This document shows positions 180 to 17,674 of a stretch of 64,000 bases of DNA, piece after piece. Source of the DNA: Allacma fusca (taxonomy: Eukaryota; Arthropoda; Collembola; Symphypleona; Sminthuridae); NCBI GenBank assembly GCA_947179485.1, contig OX359249.1, positions 55,129,402-55,193,401 of the forward strand. Direction: 5' to 3'. The notes beneath the pieces are model-generated. The model was given only the letters and a program-made list of their open reading frames with translations, searched no databases and was not told where the DNA came from. Positions within the stretch are counted from its first letter, which is position 1. Each line of letters starts with the position of its first letter. A program made the position numbers and the translations under genes.

Positions 180-402
180 AAGTCAAGTCAAGCCAAGTAC
201 TTTGAGTTGACTCCATTAATTGGCACCAACTTAGGTTTGTGGTGTAACGGTCCTCCTATGGAGTTGACCTGGAGATGGAGAGACACACTTGGTGCGGGTT
301 GTTTGTGCATTTGGATTTGTGTTGTGGTTAAGTTGTGCAGGACTTGAAGTTCCTTGGCCAAAGCCTGGTCAAGTGCCCAAAATGCATACATAGGTATTAG
401 GG

Positions 403-419
403 TTTCGGGGGATACGTAA
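403..419 (+). other. CENP-B-box-like motif (weak)
   Basis: Compared with the mammalian CENP-B consensus NTTCGNNNNANNCGGGN, this site has TTCG, the central A and CG at the right spacing, but TA instead of the last GG. That is 7 of 9 defining bases. It recurs at the same place in the cores. Insects do not necessarily have a CENP-B-type reader, so function is speculative. Confidence 0.25.
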
Positions 420-511
420 ATTATGTTCATGTGTGGGAAGACATTACTTTGACTAAATACCGAGGGTGCTGTCGACTGTGGGGAAATATTTTAAATTGCA
501 AGAAACTTGCC

Positions 512-585
512 AGTCCATTTTTTGGCCACGTTGTAAGGGCTAGGTAACCCAGGTTTGTTACACTTGTAGCCAAAAAATGGGACTA
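512..585. other. Long imperfect hairpin within the core
   Basis: Perfect 12-nt arms CCATTTTTTGGC (515-526) and GCCAAAAAATGG (569-580), extendable outward by AGTC/GACT with one bulged base. A third, direct copy of the arm lies at 658-669. In T-form cores the loop holds the odd palindrome TGGGTAACCCA. It is present in nearly all monomers. Copies 24 and 33 change the left arm to TTTTTTTGCC, copy 15 to TCAATTTTTTGG, and copy 18 breaks the right arm. Confidence 0.85.
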
Positions 586-810
586 GTATACATCTCTTGC
601 CCAAAGGTGACTCGCCAATCCACAAAGTATATGTTCCGAACTTTGGGAGACGCTCGGCCCATTTTTTGGTCATGTGCTCTGATGACATTTATATTGGATA
701 CCGAGATTTAATCAAGTAAATGTTATAATTTCAACAGTACTGGGTCAGTTGACTAACGAAGCAATCAGTGTTGTATTAGCAAAGAAATTATTAAAATTTG
801 CATTGAAATT

Positions 811-836
811 ACTTTGACCCATTTTTAGGTCAAAGT
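811..836. other. ACTTTGACC / GGTCAAAGT dyad
   Basis: Nine-base perfect arms at 811-819 and 828-836 around an 8-base loop. Copies 12, 41 and 53 share GGTCAAATT in the right arm, copies 24 and 27 have TATCGGTCAAAG, copy 50 has AAGTTCAAAG, and copy 22 has an expanded loop. Confidence 0.85.
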
Positions 837-921
837 CACTGGTCATGGTTCACGTTGGTTCCTACATCTTGAATATAATTATTTAAAGTTTTTTATTTAA
901 TGCGCATGTATTTTGGAACAG

Positions 922-933
922 CTGTATATACAG
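922..933. other. CTGTATATACAG perfect palindrome
   Basis: A 12-bp perfect palindrome preceded by ATGCGCAT (900-907) and ending 17 bp before the core/spacer boundary. It includes TATATA, so it could in principle serve as a TATA element for satellite transcription. Copies 20 and 23 have CACCTGGAAATACAG instead, which destroys it. Confidence 0.7.
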
Positions 934-950
934 ATTGAGTGTTTTAAATA

Positions 951-1165
951 TTTTGACCCATTTCGGGTCAATGTTTCAAAAAACGGTCAAACTGCTACGT
1001 ATCCGCTAAGAATCTCCTGAGACGTTCGGGATGCCAAACTATTGAAGAAAATAATTTTGACACAAAAATTGAAAAAAAAAATGAAAAAAAATGAAAAAAT
1101 TAAGTTTTGAAAAAAATTTTTTGAAAAAAACATAGTTTTGAAGAGTCGTAGCTTACTTACAAAAC
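951..1165 (+). repeat. S spacer, reference copy
   Basis: About 215 bp. Opens with the TTGACCC-atttc-GGGTCAA dyad (953-971), then a unique-sequence stretch to about 1040. About 100 bp of phased A-tracts separated by TG or TTG follow (1060-1135), ending in GTCGTAGCTTACTTAC. Homopolymer lengths vary by 1-3 bases between copies. The minor S2 subtype has GTTTTAAAAAACGGCC, AACCTCC and GCTTGCTTTAAAAAC. Confidence 0.93.
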
Positions 1166-2335
1166 AAGTCAAGTCAAGCCAAGTACTTTGAGTTGACTCC
1201 TTTATTTGGCACCAACTTAGGTTTCTGGTGTGGCGGTCCTCCTATAGAGTTGACCTGGAGATGGAGAGACACACTTGGTGTGGGTTGTTTGTGCATTTGG
1301 ATTTGTGTTGTAGTTAAGTTGTGCAGGACTTGAAGTTCCTTGGCCAAAGCCTGGTCAAGTGCCCAAAATGCATACATAGGTATTAGGGTTTCGGGGGATA
1401 CGTAAATTATGTTCATGTGTGGGAAGACATTACTTTGACTAAATACCGAGGGTGCTGTCGACTGTGGGGAAATATTTTAAATTGCAAGAAACTTGCCAGT
1501 CCATTTTTTGGCCACGTTGTAAGGGCTGGGTAACCCAATCGTGTTACACTTGTAGCCAAAAAATGGGACTAGTATACATCTCTTGCCCAAAGGTGACTCG
1601 CCAATCCACAAAGTATATGTTCCGAACTTTGGGAGACGCTCGGCCCATTTTTTGGTCATGTGCTCTGATGACATTTATATTGGATACCGAGATTTAATCA
1701 AGTAAATGTTATAATTTCAACATTACTGGGTCAGTTGACTAACGAAGCAATCAGAGTTGTTTTAGCAAAGAAAATATTAAAATTTGCATTGAAATTACTT
1801 TGACCCATTTTTAGGTCAAAGTCACTGGTCATGGTTCACGTTGGTTCCTACATCTTGAATATAATTATTTAAAGTTTTTTATTTAATGCGCATGTATTTT
1901 GGAACAGCTGTATATACAGATTGAGTGTTTTAAGTATTTTGACCTATTTCAGGACAATATCACACCTCATTGGTAATTTGGGTTTTTATCTATTGAGTTT
2001 TTGTTAAAATATAATAATACGGGATTAACTGACTTTTGGAATATAGAAACCCAAAGAACTATTATGTCGAATTATTTTCTGCCAATGTAACAGGTCACGT
2101 ATAATGTGCGCGGAAAAGTCCTAAATAAGGTGGATTTCTGAAACGATTATTTTCGTAGCCAGGAAATGGACAGAAACTACGGAGTGTGCAGATAGTGCTG
2201 TAATGTCGGGTTTGGTCAAACAAGCGAGTTTTTGAGCTGCCTTGGGTCGCTAGCGGCGACCGGCCCGCGATGATGGTGGTGCTAATGAAATTTGTTAAAC
2301 AAAAATTATAAAATATCGTAGCCTACTGTGAAAAG
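1166..2335 (+). repeat. Monomer 2: core T, L spacer
   Basis: L spacer 1937-2335. Has CTTTATTTGG in place of CTTTAATTGG. The tail carries the L-linked variants CATTACTGGG and AGAGTTGTTTTAGC. Confidence 0.95.
1937..2335 (+). repeat. L spacer, reference copy
   Basis: About 399 bp. The first ~22 bases (TTTTGACCTATTTCAGGACAA) and last ~30 bases (TCGTAGCCTACTGTGAAAAG) align to the ends of S, while the ~350-bp interior does not. The interior runs from ATCACACCTCATTGG to a GC-rich patch with GGTCGC-tagcg-GCGACC. Twenty copies occur, counting the partial one at the window edge. Confidence 0.93.
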
Positions 2336-3320
2336 AAGTCAAGTCAAGCCAAGTACTTTGAGTTGACTCCATTAATTGGCACCAAATAGGTTTCTGGTGT
2401 GGCGGTCCTCCTATGGAGTTGACCTGGAGATGGAGAGACACACTTGGTGCGGGTTGTTTGTGCATTTGGATTTGTGTTGTGGTTAAGTTGTGCAGGACTT
2501 GAAGTTCCTTGGCCAAAGCCTGGTCAAGTGCCCAAAATGCATACATAGGTATTAGGGTTTCGGGGGATACGTAAATTATGTTCATGTGTGGGAAGACATT
2601 ACTTTGACTAAATACCGAGGGTGCTGTCGACTGTGGGGAAATATTTTAAATTGCAAGAAACTTGCCAGTCCATTTTTTGGCCACGTTGTAAGGGCTAGGT
2701 AACCCAGGTTTGTTACACTTGTAGCCAAAAAATGGGACTAGTATACATCTCTTGCCCAAAGGTGACTCGCCAATCCACAAAGTATATGTTCCGAACTTTG
2801 GGAGACGCTCGGCCCATTTTTTGGTCATGTGCTCTGATGACATTTATATTGGATACCGAGATTTAATCAAGTAAATGTTATAATTTCAACAGTACTGGGT
2901 CAGTTGACTAACGAAGCAATCAGTGTTGTATTAGCAAAGAAATTATTAAAATTTGCATTGAAATTACTTTGACCCATTTTTAGGTCAAAGTCACTGGTCA
3001 TGGTTCACGTTGGTTCCTACATCTTGAATATAATTATTTAAAGTTTTTTATTTAATGCGCATGTATTTTGGAACAGCTGTATATACAGATTGAGTGTTTT
3101 AAATATTTTGACCCATTTCGGGTCAATGTTTCAAAAAACGGTCAAACTGCTACGTATCCGCTAAGAATCTCCTGAGACGTTCGGGATGCCAAACTATTGA
3201 AGAAAATAATTTTGACACAAAAATTGAAAAACAAAATGAAAAAAAATGAAAAAATTAAGTTTTGAAAAAAATTTTTTGAAAAAAACATAGTTTTGAAGAG
3301 TCGTAGCTTACTTACAAAAC
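2336..3320 (+). repeat. Monomer 3: core K, S spacer
   Basis: Post-L 5' form with the one-base-shorter ACCAAATAGG variant. S spacer begins at 3106. Confidence 0.95.
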
Positions 3321-4490
3321 AAGTCAAGTCAAGCCAAGTACTTTGAGTTGACTCCTTTAATTGGCACCAACTTAGGTTTCTGGTGTGGCGGTCCTCCTAT
3401 AGAGTTGACCTGGAGATGGAGAGACACACTTGGTGTGGGTTGTTTGTGCATTTGGATTTGTGTTGTAGTTAAGTTGTGCAGGACTTGAAGTTCCTTGGCC
3501 AAAGCCTGGCCAAGTGCCCAAAATGCATACATAGGTATTAGGGTTTCGGGGGATACGTAAATTATGTTCATGTGTGGGAAGACATTACTTTGACTAAATA
3601 CCGAGGGTGCTGTCGACTGTGGGGAAATATTTTAAATTGCAAGAAACTTGCCAGTCCATTTTTTGGCCACGTTGTAAGGGCTGGGTAACCCAATCGTGTT
3701 ACACTTGTAGCCAAAAAATGGGACTAGTATACATCTCTTGCCCAAAGGTGACTCGCCAATCCACAAAGTATATGTTCCGAACTTTGGGAGACGCTCGGCC
3801 CATTTTTTGGTCATGTGCTCTGATGACATTTATATTGGATACCGAGATTTAATCAAGTAAATGTTATAATTTCAACATTACTGGGTCAGTTGACTAACGA
3901 AGCAATCAGAGTTGTTTTAGCAAAGAAAATATTAAAATTTGCATTGAAATTACTTTGACCCATTTTTAGGTCAAAGTCACTGGTCATGGTTCACGTTGGT
4001 TCCTACATCTTGAATATAATTATTTAAAGTTTTTTATTTAATGCGCATGTATTTTGGAACAGCTGTATATACAGATTGAGTGTTTTAAGTATTTTGACCT
4101 ATTTCAGGACAATATCACACCTCATTGGTAATTTGGGTTTTTATCTATTGAGTTTTTGTTAAAATATAATAATACGGGATTAACTGACTTTTGGAATATA
4201 GAAACCCAAAGAACTATTATGTCGAATTATTTTCTGCCAATGTAACAGGTCACGTATAATGTGCGCGGAAAAGTCCTAAATAAGGTGGATTTCTGAAACG
4301 ATTATTTTCGTAGCCAGGAAATGGACAGAAACTACGGAGTGTGCAGATAGTGCTGTAATGTCGGGTTTGGTCAAACAAGCGAGTTTTTGAGCTGCCTTGG
4401 GTCGCTAGCGGCGACCGGCCCGCGATGATGGTGGTGCTAATGAAATTTGTTAAAAAAAAATTATAAAATATCGTAGCGTACTGTGAAAAG
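3321..4490 (+). repeat. Monomer 4: core T, L spacer
   Basis: L spacer 4092-4490. Shares CCTGGCCAAGTGCC with monomer 7 only. L-linked tail variants present. Confidence 0.95.
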
Positions 4491-5659
4491 AAGTCAAGTC
4501 AAGCCAAGTACTTTGAGTTGACTCCATTAATTGGCACCAAATAGGTTTCTGGTGTGGCGGTCCTCCTATGGAGTTGACCTGGAGATGGAGAGACACACTT
4601 GGTGCGGGTTGTTTGTGCATTTGGATTTGTGTTGTGGTTAAGTTGTGCAGGACTTGAAGTTCCTTGGCCAAAGCCTGGTCAAGTGCCCAAAATGCATACA
4701 TAGGTATTAGGGTTTCGGGGGATACGTAAATTATGTTCATGTGTGGGAAGACATTACTTTGACTAAATACCGAGGGTGCTGTCGACTGTGGGGAAATATT
4801 TTAAATTGCAAGAAACTTGCCAGTCCATTTTTTGGCCACGTTGTAAGGGCTAGGTAACCCAGGTTTGTTACACTTGTAGCCAAAAAATGGGACTAGTATA
4901 CATCTCTTGCCCAAAGGTGACTCGCCAATCCACAAAGTATATGTTCCGAACTTTGGGAGACGCTCGGCCCATTTTTTGGTCATGTGCTCTGATGACATTT
5001 ATATTGGATACCGAGATTTAATCAAGTAAATGTTATAATTTCAACATTACTGGGTCAGTTGACTAACGAAGCAATCAGAGTTGTTTTAGCAAAGAAAATA
5101 TTAAAATTTGCATTGAAATTACTTTGACCCATTTTTAGGTCAAAGTCACTGGTCATGGTTCACGTTGGTTCCTACATCTTGAATATAATTATTTAAAGTT
5201 TTTTATTTAATGCGCATGTATTTTGGAACAGCTGTATATACAGATTGAGTGTTTTAAGTATTTTGACCTATTTCAGGACAATATCACACCTCATTGGTAA
5301 TTTGGGTTTTTATCTATTGAGTTTTTGTTAAAATATAATAATACGGGATTAACTGACTTTTGGAATATAGAAACCCAAAGAACTATTATGTCGAATTATT
5401 TTCTGCCAATGTAACAGGTCACGTATAATGTGCGCGGAAAAGTCGTAAATAAGGTGGATTTCTGAAACGATTATTTTCGTAGCCAGGAAATGGACAGAAA
5501 CTACGGAGTGTGCAGAAAGTGCTGTAATGTCGGGTTTGGTCAAACAAGCGAGTTTTTGAGCTGCCTTGGGTCGCTAGCGGCGACCGGCCCGCGATGATGG
5601 TGGTGCTAATGAAATTTGTTAAAAAAAAATTATAAAATATCGTAGCCTACTGTGAAAAG
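4491..5659 (+). repeat. Monomer 5: core K, L spacer
   Basis: L spacer 5261-5659, with GTCGTAAATAAGG and GCAGAAAGTGC, changes shared only with the L spacer at 9570. ACCAAATAGG 5' variant. Confidence 0.95.
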
Positions 5660-6644
5660 AAGTCAAGTCAAGCCAAGTACTTTGAGTTGACTCCATTAAT
5701 TGGCACCAAATAGGTTTCTGGTGTGGCGGTCCTCCTATGGAGTTGACCTGGAGATGGAGAGACACACTTGGTGCGGGTTGTTTGTGCATTTGGATTTGTG
5801 TTGTGGTTAAGTTGTGCAGGACTTGAAGTTCCTTGGCCAAAGCCTGGTCAAGTGCCCAAAATGCATACATAGGTATTAGGGTTTCGGGGGATACGTAAAT
5901 TATGTTCATGTGTGGGAAGACATTACTTTGACTAAATACCGAGGGTGCTGTCGACTGTGGGGAAATATTTTAAATTGCAAGAAACTTGCCAGTCCATTTT
6001 TTGGCCACGTTGTAAGGGCTAGGTAACCCAGGTTTGTTACACTTGTAGCCAAAAAATGGGACTAGTATACATCTCTTGCCCAAAGGTGACTCGCCAATCC
6101 ACAAAGTATATGTTCCGAACTTTGGGAGACGCTCGGCCCATTTTTTGGTCATGTGCTCTGATGACATTTATATTGGATACCGAGATTTAATCAAGTAAAT
6201 GTTATAATTTCAACAGTACTGGGTCAGTTGACTAACGAAGCAATCAGTGTTGTATTAGCAAAGAAATTATTAAAATTTGCATTGAAATTACTTTGACCCA
6301 TTTTTAGGTCAAAGTCACTGGTCATGGTTCACGTTGGTTCCTACATCTTGAATATAATTATTTAAAGTTTTTTATTTAATGCGCATGTATTTTGGAACAG
6401 CTGTATATACAGATTGAGTGTTTTAAATATTTTGACCCATTTCGGGTCAATGTTTCAAAAAACGGTCAAACTGCTACGTATCCGCTAAGAATCTCCTGAG
6501 ACGTTCGGGATGCCAAACTATTGAAGAAAATAATTTTGACACAAAAATTGAAAAACAAAATGAAAAAAAATGAAAAAATTAAGTTTTGAAAAAAATTTTT
6601 TGAAAAAAACATAGTTTTGAAGAGTCGTAGCTTACTTACAAAAC
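5660..6644 (+). repeat. Monomer 6: core K, S spacer
   Basis: ACCAAATAGG 5' variant, S-linked tail (CAGTACTGGG, TGTTGTATTAGC). Confidence 0.95.
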
Positions 6645-7814
6645 AAGTCAAGTCAAGCCAAGTACTTTGAGTTGACTCCTTTAATTGGCACCAACTTAGG
6701 TTTCTGGTGTGGCGGTCCTCCTATAGAGTTGACCTGGAGATGGAGAGACACACTTGGTGTGGGTTGTTTGTGCATTTGGATTTGTGTTGTAGTTAAGTTG
6801 TGCAGGACTTGAAGTTCCTTGGCCAAAGCCTGGCCAAGTGCCCAAAATGCATACATAGGTATTAGGGTTTCGGGGGATACGTAAATTATGTTCATGTGTG
6901 GGAAGACATTACTTTGACTAAATACCGAGGGTGCTGTCGACTGTGGGGAAATATTTTAAATTGCAAGAAACTTGCCAGTCCATTTTTTGGCCACGTTGTA
7001 AGGGCTAGGTAACCCAGGTTTGTTACACTTGTAGCCAAAAAATGGGACTAGTATACATCTCTTGCCCAAAGGTGACTCGCCAATCCACAAAGTATATGTT
7101 CCGAACTTTGGGAGACGCTCGGCCCATTTTTTGGTCATGTGCTCTGATGACATTTATATTGGATACCGAGATTTAATCAAGTAAATGTTATAATTTCAAC
7201 ATTACTGGGTCAGTTGACTAACGAAGCAATCAGAGTTGTTTTAGCAAAGAAAATATTAAAATTTGCATTGAAATTACTTTGACCCATTTTTAGGTCAAAG
7301 TCACTGGTCATGGTTCACGTTGGTTCCTACATCTTGAATATAATTATTTAAAGTTTTTTATTTAATGCGCATGTATTTTGGAACAGCTGTATATACAGAT
7401 TGAGTGTTTTAAGTATTTTGACCTATTTCAGGACAATATCACACCTCATTGGTAATTTGGGTTTTTATCTATTGAGTTTTTGTTAAAATATAATAATACG
7501 GGATTAACTGACTTTTGGAATATAGAAACCCAAAGAACTATTATGTCGAATTATTTTCTGCCAATGTAACAGGTCACGTATAATGTGCGCGGAAAAGTCC
7601 TAAATAAGGTGGATTTCTGAAACGATTATTTTCGTAGCCAGGAAATGGACAGAAACTACGGAGTGTGCAGATAGTGCTGTAATGTCGGGTTTGGTCAAAC
7701 AAGCGAGTTTTTGAGCTGCCTTGGGTCGCTAGCGGCGACCGGCCCGCGATGATGGTGGTGCTAATGAAATTTGTTAAAAAAAAATTATAAAATATCGTAG
7801 CGTACTGTGAAAAG
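6645..7814 (+). repeat. Monomer 7: core K, L spacer
   Basis: Post-S 5' form (CCTTTAATTGG, ATAGAG) joined to a K middle, so it looks recombinant. L spacer 7416-7814. Shares CCTGGCCAAGTGCC with monomer 4. Confidence 0.95.
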
Positions 7815-8798
7815 AAGTCAAGTCAAGCCAAGTACTTTGAGTTGACTCCATTAATTGGCACCAACTTAGGTTTGTGGTGTGGCGGTCCCTATGGAGTTGA
7901 CCTGGAGATGGAGAGACACACTTGGTGCGGGTTGTTTGTGCATTTGGATTTGTGTTGTGGTTAAGTTGTGCAGGACTTGAAGTTCCTTGGCCAAAGCCTG
8001 GTCAAGTGCCCAAAATGCATACATAGGTATTAGGGTTTCGGGGGATACGTAAATTATGTTCATGTGTGGGAAGACATTACTTTGACTAAATACCGAGGGT
8101 GCTGTCGACTGTGGGGAAATATTTTAAATTGCAAGAAACTTGCCAGTCCATTTTTTGGCCACGTTGTAAGGGCTAGGTAACCCAGGTTTGTTACACTTGT
8201 AGCCAAAAAATGGGACTAGTATACATCTCTTGCCCAAAGGTGACTCGCCAATCCACAAAGTATATGTTCCGAACTTTGGGAGACGCTCGGCCCATTTTTT
8301 GGTCATGTGCTCTGATGACATTTATATTGGATACCGAGATTTAATCAAGTAAATGTTATAATTTCAACAGTACTGGGTCAGTTGACTAACGAAGCAATCA
8401 GTGTTGTATTAGCAAAGAAATTATTAAAATTTGCATTGAAATTACTTTGACCCATTTTTAGGTCAAAGTCACTGGTCATGGTTCACGTTGGTTCCTACAT
8501 CTTGAATATAATTATTTAAAGTTTTTTATTTAATGCGCATGTATTTTGGAACAGCTGTATATACAGATTGAGTGTTTTAAATATTTTGACCCATTTCGGG
8601 TCAATGTTTCAAAAAACGGTCAAACTGCTACGTATCCGCTAAGAATCTCCTGAGACGTTCGGGATGCCAAACTATTGAAGAAAATAATTTTGACACAAAA
8701 ATTGAAAAACAAAATGAAAAAAAATGAAAAAATTAAGTTTTGAAAAAATTTTTTTGAAAAAAACATAGTTTTGAAGAGTCGTAGCTTACTTACAAAAC
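7815..8798 (+). repeat. Monomer 8: core K, S spacer
   Basis: Private 2-bp deletion, GGTCCCTATGG for GGTCCTCCTATGG, which shortens the minus-strand open frame there. Confidence 0.95.
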
Positions 8799-9968
8799 AA
8801 GTCAAGTCAAGCCAAGTACTTTGAGTTGACTCCTTTAATTGGCACCAACTTAGGTTTCTGGTGTGGCGGTCCTCCTATAGAGTTGACCTGGAGATGGAGA
8901 GACACACTTGGTGTGGGTTGTTTGTGCATTTGGATTTGTGTTGTAGTTAAGTTGTGCAGGACTTGAAGTTCCTTGGCCAAAGCCTGGTCAAGTGCCCAAA
9001 ATGCATACATAGGTATTAGGGTTTCGGGGGATACGTAAATTATGTTCATGTGTGGGAAGACATTACTTTGACTAAATACCGAGGGTGCTGTCGACTGTGG
9101 GGAAATATTTTAAATTGCAAGAAACTTGCCAGTCCATTTTTTGGCCACGTTGTAAGGGCTGGGTAACCCAATCGTGTTACACTTGTAGCCAAAAAATGGG
9201 ACTAGTATACATCTCTTGCCCAAAGGTGACTCGCCAATCCACAAAGTATATGTTCCGAACTTTGGGAGACGCTCGGCCCATTTTTTGGTCATGTGCTCTG
9301 ATGACATTTATATTGGATACCGAGATTTAATCAAGTAAATGTTATAATTTCAACATTACTGGGTCAGTTGACTAACGAAGCAATCAGAGTTGTTTTAGCA
9401 AAGAAAATATTAAAATTTGCATTGAAATTACTTTGACCCATTTTTAGGTCAAAGTCACTGGTCATGGTTCACGTTGGTTCCTACATCTTGAATATAATTA
9501 TTTAAAGTTTTTTATTTAATGCGCATGTATTTTGGAACAGCTGTATATACAGATTGAGTGTTTTAAGTATTTTGACCTATTTCAGGACAATATCACACCT
9601 CATTGGTAATTTGGGTTTTTATCTATTGAGTTTTTGTTAAAATATAATAATACGGGATTAACTGACTTTTGGAATATAGAAACCCAAAGAACTATTATGT
9701 CGAATTATTTTCTGCCAATGTAACAGGTCACGTATAATGTGCGCGGAAAAGTCGTAAATAAGGTGGATTTCTGAAACGATTATTTTCGTAGCCAGGAAAT
9801 GGACAGAAACTACGGAGTGTGCAGAAAGTGCTGTAATGTCGGGTTTGGTCAAACAAGCGAGTTTTTGAGCTGCCTTGGGTCGCTAGCGGCGACCGGCCCG
9901 CGATGATGGTGGTGCTAATGAAATTTGTTAAACAAAAATTATAAAATATCGTAGCCTACTGTGAAAAG
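8799..9968 (+). repeat. Monomer 9: core T, L spacer
   Basis: L spacer 9570-9968 with the GTCGTAAATAAGG and GCAGAAAGTGC pair shared with monomer 5. Confidence 0.95.
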
Positions 9969-11137
9969 AAGTCAAGTCAAGCCAAGTACTTTGAGTTGAC
10001 TCCATTAATTGGCACCAAATAGGTTTCTGGTGTGGCGGTCCTCCTATGGAGTTGACCTGGAGATGGAGAGACACACTTGGTGCGGGTTGTTTGTGCATTT
10101 AGATTTGTGTTGTGGTTAAGTTGTGCAGGACTTGAAGTTCCTTGGCCAAAGCCTGGTCAAGTGCCCAAAATGCATACATAGGTATTAGGGTTTCGGGGGA
10201 TACGTAAATTATGTTCATGTGTGGGAAGACATTACTTTGACTAAATACCGAGGGTGCTGTCGACTGTGGGGAAATATTTTAAATTGCAAGAAACTTGCCA
10301 GTCCATTTTTTGGCCACGTTGTAAGGGCTAGGTAACCCAGGTTTGTTACACTTGTAGCCAAAAAATGGGACTAGTATACATCTCTTGCCCAAAGGTGACT
10401 CGCCAATCCACAAAGTATATGTTCCGAACTTTGGGAGACGCTCGGCCCATTTTTTGGTCATGTGCTCTGATGACATTTATATTGGATACCGAGATTTAAT
10501 CAAGTAAATGTTATAATTTCAACATTACTGGGTCAGTTGACTAACGAAGCAATCAGAGTTGTTTTAGCAAAGAAATTATTAAAATTTGCATTGAAATTAC
10601 TTTGACCCATTTTTAGGTCAAAGTCACTGGTCATGGTTCACGTTGGTTCCTACATCTTGAATATAATTATTTAAAGTTTTTTATTTAATGCGCATGTATT
10701 TTGGAACAGCTGTATATACAGATTGAGTGTTTTAAGTATTTTGACCTATTTCAGGACAATATCACACCTCATTGGTAATTTGGGTTTTTATCTATTGAGT
10801 TTTTGTTAAAATATAATAATACGGGATTAACTGACTTTTGGAATATAGAAACCCAAAGAACTATTATGTCGAATTATTTTCTGCCAATGTAACAGGTCAC
10901 GTATAATGTGCGCGGAAAAGTCCTAAATAAGGTGGATTTCTGAAACGATTATTTTCGTAGCCAGGAAATGGACAGAAACTACGGAGTGTGCAGATAGTGC
11001 TGTAATGTCGGGTTTGGTCAAACAAGCGAGTTTTTGAGCTGCCTTGGGTCGCTAGCGGCGACCGGCCCGCGATGATGGTAGTGCTAATGAAATTTGTTAA
11101 AAAAAAATTATAAAATATCGTAGCGTACTGTGAAAAG
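9969..11137 (+). repeat. Monomer 10: core K, L spacer
   Basis: L spacer 10739-11137 (GATGGTAGTGC variant). Private GCATTTAGATTTG closes the usual minus-strand frame. Confidence 0.95.
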
Positions 11138-12123
11138 AAGTCAAGTCAAGCCAAGTACTTTGAGTTGACTCCATTAATTGGCACCAACTTAGGTTTGTGG
11201 TGTGGCGGTCCTCCTATGGAGTTGACCTGGAGATGGAGAGACACACTTGGTGCGGGTTGTTTGTGCATTTGGATTTGTGTTGTGGTTAAGTTGTGCAGGA
11301 CTTGAAGTTCCTTGGCCAAAGCCTGGTCAAGTGCCCAAAATGCATACATAGGTATTAGGGTTTCGGGGGATACGTAAATTATGTTCATGTGTGGGAAGAC
11401 ATTACTTTGACTAAATACCGAGGGTGCTGTCGACTGTGGGGAAATATTTTAAATTGCAAGAAACTTGCCAGTCCATTTTTTGGCCACGTTGTAAGGGCTA
11501 GGTAACCCAGGTTTGTTACACTTGTAGCCAAAAAATGGGACTAGTATACATCTCTTGCCCAAAGGTGACTCGCCAATCCACAAAGTATATGTTCCGAACT
11601 TTGGGAGACGCTCGGCCCATTTTTTGGTCATGTGCTCTGATGACATTTATATTGGATACCGAGATTTAATCAAGTAAATGTTATAATTTCAACAGTACTG
11701 GGTCAGTTGACTAACGAAGCAATCAGTGTTGTATTAGCAAAGAAATTATTAAAATTTGCATTGAAATTACTTTGACCCATTTTTAGGTCAAAGTCACTGG
11801 TCATGGTTCACGTTGGTTCCTACATCTTGAATATAATTATTTAAAGTTTTTTATTTAATGCGCATGTATTTTGGAACAGCTGTATATACAGATTGAGTAA
11901 TTTAAATATTTTGACCCATTTCGGGTCAATGTTTCAAAAAACGGCCAAACTGCTACGTATCCGCTAAGAATCTCCTGAGACGTTCGGGATGCCAAACTAT
12001 TGAAGAAAATAATTTTGACACAAAAATTGAAAAACAAAATGAAAAAAAATGAAAAAATTAAGTTTTGAAAAAAATTTTTTGAAAAAAACATAGTTTTGAA
12101 GAGTCGTAGCTTACTTACAAAAC
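11138..12123 (+). repeat. Monomer 11: core K, S spacer
   Basis: Carries GAGTAATTTAAATATT before the spacer and ACGGCCAAAC within it. I see the first change elsewhere only in monomer 13, beyond the telomeric block. Confidence 0.95.
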
Positions 12124-12804
12124 AAGTCAAGTCAAGCCAAGTACTTTGAGTTGACTCCTTTAATTGGCACCAACTTAGGTTTCTGGTGTGGCGGTCCTCC
12201 TATAGAGTTGACCTGGAGATGGAGAGACACACTTGGTGTGGGTTGTTTGTGCATTTGGATTTGTGTTGTAGTTAAGTTGTGCAGGACTTGAAGTTCCTTG
12301 GCCAAAGCCTGGTCAAGTGCCCAAAATGCATACATAGGTATTAGGGTTTCGGGGGATACGTAAATTATGTTCATGTGTGGGAAGACATTACTTTGACTAA
12401 ATACCGAGGGTGCTGTCGACTGTGGGGAAATATTTTAAATTGCAAGAAACTTGCCAGTCCATTTTTTGGCCACGTTGTAAGGGCTGGGTAACCCAATCGT
12501 GTTACACTTGTAGCCAAAAAATGGGACTAGTATACATCTCTTGCCCAAAGGTGACTCGCCAATCCACAAAGTATATGTTCCGAACTTTGGGAGACGCTCG
12601 GCCCATTTTTTGGTCATGTGCTCTGATGACATTTATATTGGATACCGAGATTTAATCAAGTAAATGTTATAATTTCAACATTACTGGGTCAGTTGACTAA
12701 CGAAGCAATCAGAGTTGTTTTAGCAAAGAAAATATTAAAATTTGCATTGAAATTACTTTGACCCATTTTTAGGTCAAATTCACTGGTCATGGTTCACGTT
12801 GGTT
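12124..12804 (+). repeat. Monomer 12: core T, truncated by TTAGG tract
   Basis: Core runs normally to CACGTTGGTT, where intact copies continue CCTACATC, and then switches to AGGTTAGG. The tail carries L-linked variants plus GTCAAATTCAC, shared with monomers 41 and 53. Its spacer is lost. Confidence 0.95.
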
Positions 12805-12992
12805 AGGTTAGGTTAGGTTAGGTTAGGTTAGGTTAGGTTAGGTTAGGTTAGGTTAGGTTAGGTTAGGTTAGGTTAGGTTAGGTTAGGTTAGGTTAGGTTA
12901 GGTTAGGTTAGGTTAGGTTAGGTTAGGTTAGGTTAGGTTAGGTTAGGTTAGGTTAGGTTAGGTTTGGTTAGGTTAGGTTAGGTTAGGTTAGG
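12803..12992 (+). repeat. Interstitial telomeric tract (TTAGG)38
   Basis: 190 bp = 38 units of TTAGG, with one TTTGG variant (12963-12967). TTAGG is the ancestral arthropod telomere repeat. The G-rich strand is the + strand, so the tract reads toward a chromosome end lying to the right. Left junction GTTGGTT/AGG and right junction TAGG/TATTAGGG both share bases with the satellite (GGTT and TAGG). About 700 bp of satellite (or about 520 bp if the missing spacer was S) is absent across the tract. Confidence 0.98.
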
Positions 12993-13760
12993 TATTAGGG
13001 TTTCGGGGGATACGTAAATTATGTTCATGTGTGGGAAGACATTACTTTGACTAAATACCGAGGGTGCTGTCGACTGTGGGGAAATATTTTAAATTGCAAG
13101 AAACTTGCCAGTCCATTTTTTGGCCACGTTGTAAGGGCTAGGTAACCCAGGTTTGTTACACTTGTAGCCAAAAAATGGGACTAGTATACATCTCTTGCCC
13201 AAAGGTGACTCGCCAATCCACAAAGTATATGTTCCGAACTTTGGGAGACGCTCGGCCCATTTTTTGGTCATGTGCTCTGATGACATTTATATTGGATACC
13301 GAGATTTAATCAAGTAAATGTTATAATTTCAACAGTACTGGGTCAGTTGACTAACGAAGCAATCAGTGTTGTATTAGCAAAGAAATTATTAAAATTTGCA
13401 TTGAAATTACTTTGACCCATTTTTAGGTCAAAGTCACTGGTCATGGTTCACGTTGGTTCCTACATCTTGAATATAATTATTTAAAGTTTTTTATTTAATG
13501 CGCATGTATTTTGGAACAGCTGTATATACAGATTGAGTAATTTAAATATTTTGACCCATTTCGGGTCAATGTTTCAAAAAACGGCCAAACTGCTACGTAT
13601 CCGCTAAGAATCTCCTGAGACGTTCGGGATGCCAAACTATTGAAGAAAATAATTTTGACACAAAAATTGAAAAAAAATGAAAAAAAATGAAAAAATTAAG
13701 TTTTGAAAATTTTTTTTGAAAAAAACATAGTTTTGAAGAGTCGTAGCTTACTTACAAAAC
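12993..13760 (+). repeat. Monomer 13: core K, 5' truncated, S spacer
   Basis: Begins at TATTAGGGTTTCGG, lacking the first ~215 bp of the core. Has the GAGTAATTT and ACGGCCAAAC variants of monomer 11. The spacer is 3 bp shorter. Confidence 0.95.
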
Positions 13761-14356
13761 AAGTCAAGTCAAGCCAAGTACTTTGAGTTGACTCCTTTAA
13801 TTGGCACCAACTTAGGTTTCTGGTGTGGCGGTCCTCCTATAGAGTTGACCTGGAGATGGAGAGACACACTTGGTGTGGGTTGTTTGTGCATTTGGATTTG
13901 TGTTGTAGTTAAGTTGTGCAGGACTTGAAGTTCCTTGGCCAAAGCCTGGTCAAGTGCCCAAAATGCATACATAGGTATTAGGGTTTCGGGGGATACGTAA
14001 ATTATGTTCATGTGTGGGAAGACATTACTTTGACTAAATACCGAGGGTGCTGTCGACTGTGGGGAAATATTTTAAATTGCAAGAAACTTGCCAGTCCATT
14101 TTTTGGCCACGTTGTAAGGGCTGGGTAACCCAATCGTGTTACACTTGTAGCCAAAAAATGGGACTAGTATACATCTCTTGCCCAAAGGTGACTCGCCAAT
14201 CCACAAAGTATATGTTCCGAACTTTGGGAGACGCTCGGCCCATTTTTTGGTCATGTGCTCTGATGACATTTATATTGGATACCGAGATTTAATCAAGTAA
14301 ATGTTATAATTTCAACAGTACTGGGTCAGTTGACTCACGAAGCAATCAGTGTTGTA
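13761..14356 (+). repeat. Monomer 14: core T, 3' truncated
   Basis: Normal through CAGTACTGGG, then GACTCACG. It stops at GTGTTGTATT and joins a diverged S-like spacer. About 184 bp are deleted with the bases ATT shared by both sides. Confidence 0.93.
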
Positions 14357-14542
14357 TTTCGGGTCAATGTTTCAAAAAAATGTCAAATTACTTTGTATCT
14401 GCTAAGAACCTTCTGTGACGGTGGCAATGCCAACTTTTTTAAGAAAAAAATTTTGAAAAAAATTTTTTTTTGAAAAATAAAGTTTTGCAAAAATATTTTG
14501 AAAAAAAAATGGTTTTCAAAAGTTGTAGCCTACTGTGAAAAG
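14357..14542 (+). repeat. Diverged S-like spacer with L-like end
   Basis: Aligns to S from TTTCGGGTCAATGTTTC through a diverged CTGCTAAGAACC region and A-tracts, with many substitutions. Its 3' end, GTAGCCTACTGTGAAAAGAAG, matches the end of L and not that of S. It is much more diverged than other copies. Confidence 0.85.
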
Positions 14543-14733
14543 AAGTCAAGTCCAGCCAAGTACTTTGTGTTGACTCCATTATTTGGCCACAAGGTAGGTT
14601 TGTGGTGTGGGGGTCCTCCTATGCAGTTGACCTGGAGATGGAGAGACACACTTGGTTCGGGTTGATATGGCATTTAGAGGTGTGTTGTTGTTAAGTTGTG
14701 CAGGACTAGAAGTCCTTTGGCCAAAGCGTGGTC
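14543..14733 (+). repeat. Fossil core fragment (5' end only)
   Basis: Aligns to the first ~190 bp of the core with scattered changes (AGTCCAGCC, TTTGTGTTGAC, ATTTGGCCACAAGG, GTGGGGGTCC, GATATGGCATTTAG). Homology ends after CAAAGCGTGGTC. It resembles the post-L 5' form. Confidence 0.9.
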
Positions 14734-16011
14734 GTCCGTTAATCTCCCTTTTTAATATACTATTCCTCGTCTTGTTACTATTCATCTCACACTCTACATT
14801 TTCTCGGCTATGGAGCGAAAAGGCTTGTGGTATACCCTTTGAGGGAGAGCAATGGACGGAGCGCAATTTCTCGATTTGTCTAGGCCTGTGCCTACTTATA
14901 TGAGGGGAAAAAATATGTACGGAACCTTGTACATATACTTCCCCCTAGTCTACTTTAAACCGAAGATAGCCAGTATGAACTTCTGAGTTTTAACTTCACA
15001 GGTTAAAAAGATTGTTTGTGGCCTAATGAGTAAGCTCAAGTGCAAGAATAAATTGCGTCTCTAAGGGATCTCAGTGTTATTACTTTTATTATATTAGCAA
15101 AAGTTCTAGCAACACCTACAGCACGAAGGGCTCCACAAGCTAGTCACGCTGAAAAGAAAAACATTTTAGTAGTCGTAAAATATTTCAGGAAATTTGTTAT
15201 AAGCAAACTGTACCAAATTTATTCGTCAAGAGAATGTTCCAGGCCAGAAGATCAAACAAAAATAAAATTCCTGACCAAGGTAGATTTTGTGAACCTTCGA
15301 TGTCAATAAAGAACTTGGACTTGGGATGTCTGTTCCATCCAGGAGGCCAACTAATTGCGGATTATGAGACCAATACTCCCAAGAATGAGGGTTTATCGTG
15401 GATGGAAGGCACGACAATGAGTTCCTACTTCGTTTACAGGAACAGCAAAATATTAAGAAACTAAATTCCTACCGAGAAGCTCATTTCAAGTCAACAAAAT
15501 TAATGTAGTTCTACGGTGGTTATCGAATGGATGGCCTCCGTGTCGTAGCAGTCGGTTTTTGTTATTTTTTCCGAAAACGCAGTTGTAGAGGAACATTTAA
15601 AAATTCATTTGATGTAATAGTGTTCTACCGGGGGGTTCAAATGAGTATTTCCCGCTGGCGATAACTTGGAAGGATTATTTAACAAATAAAGTTTAAACCC
15701 CATCAGCGTGGAGCCATCGATGTCGGATTGGACTACCAAACTGTAGGTACTGGTCTGTTCACAGAGATGATTCCATGGTTTGCATTGAATCCTCTGTCGA
15801 CATGTTCCGCTCTGAGTACAACCATAACACATGATAGCACAACAGGACTGTTTCTTGACAAAGTTCTAAAGAAACAACCTTCGGCATCCGAGAACCGAGT
15901 TTTGGTGAATGCCTTCCAAAGGCTATCCCCGATATGGGATCGAGTTCATCTTTCGAAAAATGTTGTGGAGGCAATAACACATTTTCACAGTTAAATACTC
16001 AAACTCAAATA
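14734..16011. other. Single-copy island of unknown origin (~1.28 kb)
   Basis: No similarity to the satellite and no internal repetition that I can see. It replaces about 125 bp of core. Contents: a strong hairpin at 14904-14944, three AATAAA hexamers (15047, 15305, 15685), and short overlapping open frames on both strands. The longest is a + strand frame ending at 15994 (about 105 codons from 15683, no in-frame ATG near its start). None resembles a family I recognise. I see no terminal inverted repeats, poly-A tail at the edge, or target-site duplication. It may be a degraded transposon fragment, captured filler at a repaired break, or an old exon. Confidence 0.75.
14904..14944. other. Hairpin in the single-copy island
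   Basis: Left arm GGGGAAAAAATATGTAC (14904-14920), loop GGAACCTT, right arm GTACATATACTTCCCC (14929-14944). Pairing is perfect over GTACATAT and GGGGAA with a small internal mismatch. It is not followed by a T-run, so it is not a bacterial-type terminator. Confidence 0.8.
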
Positions 16012-16689
16012 CTTATAATTGTAAGAAACTTGCCATTCAATTTTTTGGCCACGTTGTAAGGGCTAGGTAACCCAGGCTTGTTACACTTGTAGCCAAAAAA
16101 TGGGACTAGTATACATCTCTTGCCCAAAGGTGACTCGCCAATCCACAAAGTATATGTTCCGAACTTTGGGAGACGCTCGGCCCATTTTTTGGTCATGTGC
16201 TCTGATGACATTTATATTGGATACCGAGATTTAATCAAGTAAATGTTATAATTTCAACAGTACTGCGTCAGTTGACTCACGCAGCAATCAGTGTTGTATT
16301 AGCAAAGAAATTATTAAAATTTGCATTGAAATTACTTTGACCCATTTTTAGGTCAAAGTCACTGGTCATGGTTCACGTTGGTTCCTACATCTTGAATATA
16401 ATTATTTAAAGTTTTTTATTTAATGCGCATGTATTTTGGAACAGCTGTATATACAGATTGAGTGTTTTAAATATTTTGACCCATTTCGGGTCAATGTTTT
16501 AAAAAACGGCCAAACTGCTACGTATCCGCTAAGAACCTCCTGAGACGTTCGGGATGCCAAACTATTGAAGAAAATAATTTTGACAAAAAAATTGAAAAAA
16601 AAAATGAAAAAAAATTGAAAAAATTATATGTTGAAAAAATTATTTCGAAAAAAACATAGTTTTGAAGAGTCGTAGCTTGCTTTAAAAAC
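16012..16689 (+). repeat. Monomer 15: core K, 5' truncated, S2 spacer
   Basis: Satellite homology resumes at about AATTGTAAGAAACTTGCC. Diverged first bases (CCATTCAATTTTTTGG, CCCAGGCTTG). Has the CTGCGT/ACGCAG dyad variant (16263-16284) and the S2 spacer subtype. Confidence 0.92.
16263..16284. other. CTGCGT...ACGCAG dyad (minor subclass)
   Basis: A 22-bp near-palindrome with arms CTGCGT and ACGCAG; its right half includes TGACTCA. It is complete only in monomers 15, 23, 24, 27, 33 and 36. The major form (CTGGGT ... AACGAAG) has lost the symmetry. Confidence 0.75.
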
Positions 16690-17674
16690 AAGTCAAGTCA
16701 AGCCAAGTACTTTGAGTTGACTCCATTAATTGGCACCAAATAGGTTTGTGGTGTGGCGGTCCTCCTATGGAGTTGACCTGGAGATGGAGAGACACACTTG
16801 GTGCGGGTTGTTTGTGCATTTGGATTTATGTTGTGGTTAAGTTGTGCAGGACTTGAAGTTCCTTGGCCAAAGCCTGGTCAAGTGCCCAAAATGCATACAT
16901 AGGTATTAGGGTTTCGGGGGATACGTAAATTATGTTCATGTGTGGGAAGACATTACTTTGACTAAATACCGAGGGTGCTGTCGACTGTGGGGAAATATTT
17001 TAAATTGCAAGAAACTTGCCAGTCCATTTTTTGGCCACGTTGTAAGGGCTAGGTAACCCAGGTTTGTTACACTTGTAGCCAAAAAATGGGACTAGTATAC
17101 ATCTCTTGCCCAAAGGTGACTCGCCAATCCACAAAGTATATGTTCCGAACTTTGGGAGACGCTCGGCCCATTTTTTGGTCATGTGCTCTGATGACATTTA
17201 TATTGGATACCGAGATTTAATCAAGTAAATGTTATAATTTCAACAGTACTGGGTCAGTTGACTAACGAAGCAATCAGTGTTGTATTAGCAAAGAAATTAT
17301 TAAAATTTGCATTGAAATTACTTTGACCCATTTTTAGGTCAAAGTCACTGGTCATGGTTCACGTTGGTTCCTACATCTTGAATATAATTATTTAAAGTTT
17401 TTTATTTAATGCGCATGTATTTTGGAACAGCTGTATATACAGATTGAGTGTTTTAAATATTTTGACCCATTTCGGGTCAATGTTTCAAAAAACGGCCAAA
17501 CTGCTACGTATCCGCTAAGAATCTCCTGAGACGTTCGGGATGCCAAACTATTGAAGAAAATAATTTTGACACAAAAATTGAAAAAAAAAATGAAAAAAAA
17601 TGAAAAAATTAAGTTTTGAAAAAAATTTTTTGAAAAAAACATAGTTTTGAAGAGTCGTAGCTTACTTACAAAAC
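16690..17674 (+). repeat. Monomer 16: core K, S spacer
   Basis: Post-L-like 5' form although it follows S2. Private GGATTTATGTTG. ACGGCCAAAC in the spacer. Confidence 0.95.

Follow-up and report, generated by a model that had tools for sequence, protein, structure and literature searches.

A tract of TTAGG repeats embedded in a tandem satellite of Allacma fusca is probably an internalised copy of the satellite's own TTAGG-capped edge, a reading to which we give a probability of roughly 0.6. The tract lies in the window, our term for the whole 64,000-nucleotide stretch analysed (C5:55129402-55193401). Contig C5 is 55,591,601 bases long, and its right end lies 398 kb past the window. Genome searches covered 392.7 Mb in 91 contigs.

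The window is a + orientation satellite array consisting mainly of two kinds of monomer, A of 986 bp and B of 1169 bp, which are 97.8% identical over the first 578 bp and 94.9% identical over the last ~235 bp. A 33-mer taken from the monomer start and searched with up to three mismatches matched the whole genome 374 times in forward and twice in reverse orientation; among the matches listed, the two reverse ones are on C9 and the rest on C5. In the assembled sequence the tract comprises GG at 12801-12802 followed by 38 TTAGG units at 12803-12992 (+ strand), the 33rd of which reads TTTGG, and TRF reports 38.6 copies with 98% matches and a score of 379. Genome-wide, overlapping matches to the (TTAGG)5 25-mer number 1574 + 2036 and those to its backwards-pattern control 0, which excludes a chance origin for the tract. 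The preliminary description was thus right that a genuine TTAGG tract sits inside the satellite, here in a truncated B monomer. Since contig C1 terminates in 775 bp of TTAGG, we take TTAGG to be the telomere repeat. No second tract of this kind was found within the 64-kb window.

The monomer that hosts the tract starts at 12339 and measures 654 bp, compared with 1169 bp for an intact B monomer. Its first 466 bp (12339-12804, + strand), cut at CACGTTGGTT, differ by one base from six intact B monomers in the window. B-type variants are present in the host monomer, so the loss amounts to 703 bp (1169 - 466), with 188 bp in its place; an A monomer would give a loss of 520 bp. This measurement bears out the earlier estimate of about 700 bp missing. 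Both edges of the lesion stand out against the rest of the array: of the 57 copies of CACGTTGGTT in the window, 56 run on into CCTACATC, the exception being the left junction, and of the 60 copies of TAGGTATTAGGG, 59 are preceded by CATACA, the exception being the right junction.

The local arrangement of monomers is undisturbed. Monomer lengths define an A B A B B order repeating every 5479 bp, with starts at 395, 5874 and 11353 (395-12338, + strand); the truncated monomer stands at the expected B slot, and the A-B-A order is intact around the tract. To its left is a normal A-type monomer of 986 bp (11353-12338, + strand), and to the right an A-type monomer of 983 bp (12993-13975, + strand). 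The variant GAGTAATTTAAAT is found only in these two flanking monomers among 89 A-length monomers from the window and ten C5 tiles, and the closest monomer to the A at 12993 is the A at 11353, with two mismatches and two gaps. Further downstream, an irregular monomer of 2928 bp (13976-16903) has an internal deletion and an insert of ~1.25 kb (14733-15985) that replaces a monomer boundary. The first 710 bp of this insert have a 99.7% identical copy ~325 kb away at C5:55.469 Mb (tile L023, from 8532), indicating long-range duplication within the array, and two reading frames of the insert gave no Pfam match at E 0.1. The duplicate of the downstream block in that tile (C5:55460000) keeps the order of A monomer, irregular monomer and insert, without the tract.

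The right junction is a recurrent boundary. Here TAGGT (12989-12993, + strand) is common to the TTAGG register and the usual monomer boundary, CATACATAGG|TATTAGGG. The preliminary description had counted four shared bases at this junction, whereas the register extends to the T of TATTAGGG, making the overlap five nucleotides; its four-base GGTT overlap on the left stands. Exact genome matches to the sequence TTAGGTTAGGTATTAGGG number three, each of them on C5: at 55122704 (the left edge of the array), 55142384 (the window) and 55533808. For TTAGGTTAGGTATWAGG there are six, namely the three C5 sites together with C9:403269, 617067 and 621252 (minus strand). Read out at each of these six sites, a TTAGG tract is followed by the start of the satellite or of a diverged relative, with the form TTAGG|TAT(T/A)AGG throughout. 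Apart from the window, then, TATTAGGG was found immediately after TTAGG at five places: C5:55122714, C5:55533819 and the three C9 loci. The sequence after the tract at the array left edge is 97.0% identical to that following the window tract, the locus at 55.534 Mb on C5 is 92.5% identical to A, the C9 copies L038 and L039 are about 85% identical, and the copy at 403 kb on C9 is 65-69% identical over 151-171 bp; the boundary is kept in all of them. Because the diverged C9 copies keep it, the boundary must be old.

This recurrence at six of six exact matches indicates that the right junction is inherited and is not a fresh repair scar, as judged from sequence comparison, leaving only the left junction as a new event. 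The proposal that the right side re-entered the satellite by microhomology does not survive this comparison. It had also been suggested that TTAGG at an identical position in many arrays would point to an inherited component and not to healing; that is what we find for the right boundary, at six of six loci, whereas the left junction is unique. Likewise, an insertion made during break repair should have two new junctions, but here the left was found once and the right at five other loci. The argument is carried by the exact matches, since allowing up to one mismatch brings the searches to chance level: reversed patterns then gave 1 + 2 matches compared with 3 + 3 for TTAGGTTAGGTATTAGGG, and 12 + 17 compared with 5 + 7 for TTAGGTTAGGTATWAGG, whose six additional one-mismatch matches do not exceed the control. 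In a B monomer, 19 end points would give an overlap of at least 4 nt with the TTAGG register, and the right junction uses the one that recurs.

The six recurrent junctions lie 58-621 kb from a contig end, and in all six the G-strand runs towards the nearest contig end. Those on C5 are 58-469 kb from its right end, from which the window tract is ~449 kb distant. Compared at E 1e-10, the left flanks of loci L009 and L036 match neither one another nor the C9 loci, and the only related pair among the left flanks is that of L038 and L039, which are a duplication at 99.3% identity; the six junctions represent perhaps two to four independent cases. In L038 and L039 identity is 98% over the unit's initial 45 bp and 71-91% in later 45-bp bins, a contrast that is weak in L037 (67% for the first 45 bp, 33-67% for later bins). 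Both C9 duplicate copies have a further tract of at least four units 1046 bp beyond the recurrent junction, which suggests that the C9 units are flanked by TTAGG at both ends. A tract attached to a normal monomer 3' end, CATACATAGG|TTAGG, was absent from the C5 array among the matches listed at zero or one mismatch, and its genome totals at up to two mismatches (674/660) are at the level of the control (725/707).

At the left junction, the satellite and the TTAGG register overlap by GGTT (12801-12804, + strand). The junction sequence, CACGTTGGTTAGGTTAGG, has one exact match in the genome, and at one mismatch it has three matches elsewhere, compared with one for the control. If the break in a B monomer and the repeat phase were both random, an overlap of at least 4 nt would have P = 0.0044, which favours a homology-guided join, whether by telomerase, microhomology joining or template switching; this is a single junction (n = 1) with no replicate. 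The in-register GGTT seed and the G-strand on the 3' side are as expected for the telomerase healing originally put forward, but microhomology joining and template switching to an existing TTAGG tract predict the same features, so that healing is no more than a possibility.

A close counterpart of the tract stands at the left edge of the array (C5:55122524-55122713), 19.7 kb from the window tract, and it too consists of exactly GG, 38 TTAGG units and TATTAGGG. Aligned from the GG onwards, edge and window share 540 positions without a gap, of which 537 are identical, and all three mismatches are within the tract. Their variant units differ, being the 21st (TTAAT) at the edge and the 33rd (TTTGG) in the window. 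Divergence between the two begins 348 bp into the monomer, past which the A monomer at 12993 resembles interior monomers; therefore, the edge could have supplied the tract and at most 348 bp only, or the donor was another. The equal length of 38 units is suggestive, and no more than that, of copying from the edge. We estimate that retaining all 38 units would have a chance of ~1/38 if GGTT joined a random unit, and that a coincidence between independent tracts would have a chance of perhaps ~1/50. In the duplicated C9 loci the tract lengths are one unit apart, so lengths drift, and later gene conversion between the edge and window tracts may be the source of the equality. As between a de novo and a copied tract, the matching 38 units and the shared right boundary lean towards copying, although equal length by itself is weak evidence. 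Two particular donors were rejected. The left edge as it now stands, copied at length together with its first monomers, does not fit, given that the monomer at 12993 matches the first monomer of the edge for 348 bp only; the edge at C5:55533819 has 20 units, and its first monomer is 92.5% identical to A.

In the mechanism that we favour, a B monomer would have broken at base 466, and the broken end would have been joined through the four nucleotides GGTT to the proximal end of the satellite's TTAGG tract. From there the sequence would continue through the tract, over the inherited TTAGG|TATTAGGG boundary and into normal A monomers. The join would be the product of ectopic recombination or of template switching during replication, the donor being the edge or its allele, with the right side presumably aligned by ordinary homology and the left by GGTT microhomology. 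It is possible that telomerase first added a few repeats to the GGTT end, and that these paired with an existing TTAGG tract, although the mechanism does not require this step. This account is the simplest because one new junction suffices, and the exchange with a true chromosome end that had been offered as an alternative comes near to it once the chromosome end is equated with the TTAGG edge of the array. What appeared to be a one-off healing scar becomes part of a pattern open to testing: a satellite whose start is fixed on telomere repeats at the array edge, in diverged copies of a second contig and, a single time, within the array. Recombination through TTAGG edges would be a concrete route for telomere repeats into satellites, and claims of healing at such sites call for the novelty of each junction to be tested.

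The scenario of the preliminary description, an in situ break with partial telomerase capping and microhomology rejoining 703 bp downstream without involvement of the edge, accommodates the 4- and 5-nt overlaps, the deletion at the site and the preserved A-B-A order, and it has a parallel in mammalian interstitial insertions with in-register nucleotides and deletions, as described in PMC7215372. We consider it improbable and weaker than copying from the edge, because its right end would have to strike by chance the sole recurrent boundary, one of 19 end points; the 38 units would also have to equal the count at the array edge. A history at a chromosome end is somewhat easier to entertain, though still unlikely: the array would have ended in a broken B monomer, telomerase would have healed it from GGTT, and the TTAGG end would then have invaded another TTAGG|satellite edge by break-induced replication. 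The G-strand polarity and the 4-nt seed agree with this, as do the position of the C5 junctions 58-469 kb from the right contig end and the polarity of all six junctions towards the nearest contig end. There is also a precedent in the MoTeR elements of the blast fungus, in which 1-4 nt seeded 19 of the 24 de novo telomeres according to PMC7367193, whose authors propose that break-induced replication proceeds via interstitial telomeres. Against such a history, the A-B-A order and the variant unique to both flanking A monomers suggest a local change, and the non-telomeric end of contig C5 means that a chromosome end is not established there. Moreover, the six junctions are perhaps only two to four independent cases, and contig interiors, far from the ends, frequently hold TTAGG tracts as well.

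An assembly artefact, in which a telomeric or edge-derived read was misjoined within the array, seems very improbable. Near-identical arrays do assemble poorly, and the tract has the length of the edge tract 19.7 kb away, but the left junction is clean with its 4-nt overlap, the monomer order is undisturbed and the variant units of the two tracts differ. In addition, the B piece has a base missing from the six closest B monomers, and the edge tile contains no N.

Tentatively, and with more doubt than belief, the satellite unit itself might derive from a mobile element with a fixed end that attaches specifically to TTAGG running outward, the kinase being carried by long units, the array being its tandem expansion close to the end of a chromosome, in which the window tract would be a truncation that was re-capped and re-extended. 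Intact protein-kinase frames (L018 3242-4093 and 6757-7692; L020 4562-5413 and 8347-9282) are present in longer satellite units, one of which measures 3.34 kb. In a Pfam scan of ten open frames, two matched protein kinase (E 5e-34 and 3e-35), one matched BIR and seven had no match; the best solved relatives of the kinases are PKC, RSK, ROCK and PKA. The kinase paralogues share 65% identity with a dN of 0.23, and dS was not computable (-1), which we read as saturation; the comparison of these sequences suggests purifying selection on the kinase of the long units. Ranked next among the kinase matches are pieces on C8, at 55 kb. Further matches occur on C9 at 416 kb and, more weakly (E 1e-8), ~18 kb from the C1 end, and several interior kinases outscore these last two.

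Several known systems resemble the arrangement in part. Short interstitial telomeric sequences of primates, rodents and horse, as described in PMC7215372, share with it a short near-pure tract, in-register bases and a deletion; there, both junctions are new relative to the empty allele, whereas here one is inherited. The MoTeR arrays of Magnaporthe oryzae described in PMC7367193 are likewise tandem elements, fixed at one end to telomere repeats, with truncated elements re-capped by telomere tracts and a constant polarity to the chromosome end. MoTeR is, in that description, a telomeric retrotransposon, whereas here the unit is a ~1-kb satellite with rare TTAGG tracts in the array. Telomere-inserting endogenous nimaviruses (as presented in PMC10871703 and PMC7016691) also have one fixed end on the arthropod telomere repeat and have BIR genes, and here a BIR frame is found near the C5 contig end. 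Unlike nimaviruses, the repeat here is a ~1-kb satellite with kinase frames only in long units. A fixed terminus on the arthropod telomere repeat, although present here, is not by itself diagnostic of the nimavirus family. The Baculo_p74 profile had 0 matches in the genome, but it was also silent in the controls (detected in 0 of 14 genomes) and is uninformative. The TRAS retrotransposons of insects are telomere-specific non-LTR elements joined to TTAGG at a fixed point. For SART-type telomere-specific non-LTR retrotransposons of insects, PMC7265360 similarly describes joining to TTAGG at a fixed point, as here. Unlike TRAS and SART, the TTAGG|TATTAGGG boundary here is without poly(A), and the long units encode a protein kinase. 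A literature search, mostly of titles and abstract openings, returned no title naming a satellite with this boundary.

Elsewhere in the genome, searches for tract ends in three of the five phases gave 31, 87 and 60 matches, some of which are internal variant units. At tract ends of the phase TTAGGT|V, the next base genome-wide is A in 23 of 31, C in 7 and G in 1, possibly reflecting a preferred boundary, with the count inflated by arrays and variant units. By position, TTAGG tracts recur within stretches far from contig ends. Within C12:17667000-17721000, at 17.69-17.70 Mb, 7 of 12 successive gaps between tract ends measure 991-996 bp (13 of 19 listed ends used), and within C12:35887000-35913000, at 35.89-35.91 Mb, 12 of 14 gaps measure 1185-1520 bp (15 of 19 listed ends used). 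In a third such stretch, C5:14213000-14225000, the gaps are irregular. The last 10 kb of C5 at its right end (tile L016) are non-telomeric; they include the BIR-domain frame (Pfam E 3.5e-19, 6441-6953 of the tile) and, oppositely oriented, a short and degenerate run of CCTAA/CCTAC. A 146-bp satellite occurs in tiles at 54.6 and 54.9 Mb, and in tile L027 it is directly followed by ~2 kb of near-pure TTAGG (7461-9425; C5:55067461-55069425) and then by other sequence without N. Lying 522 kb before the contig end, this ~2-kb block looks like a former or internal telomere.
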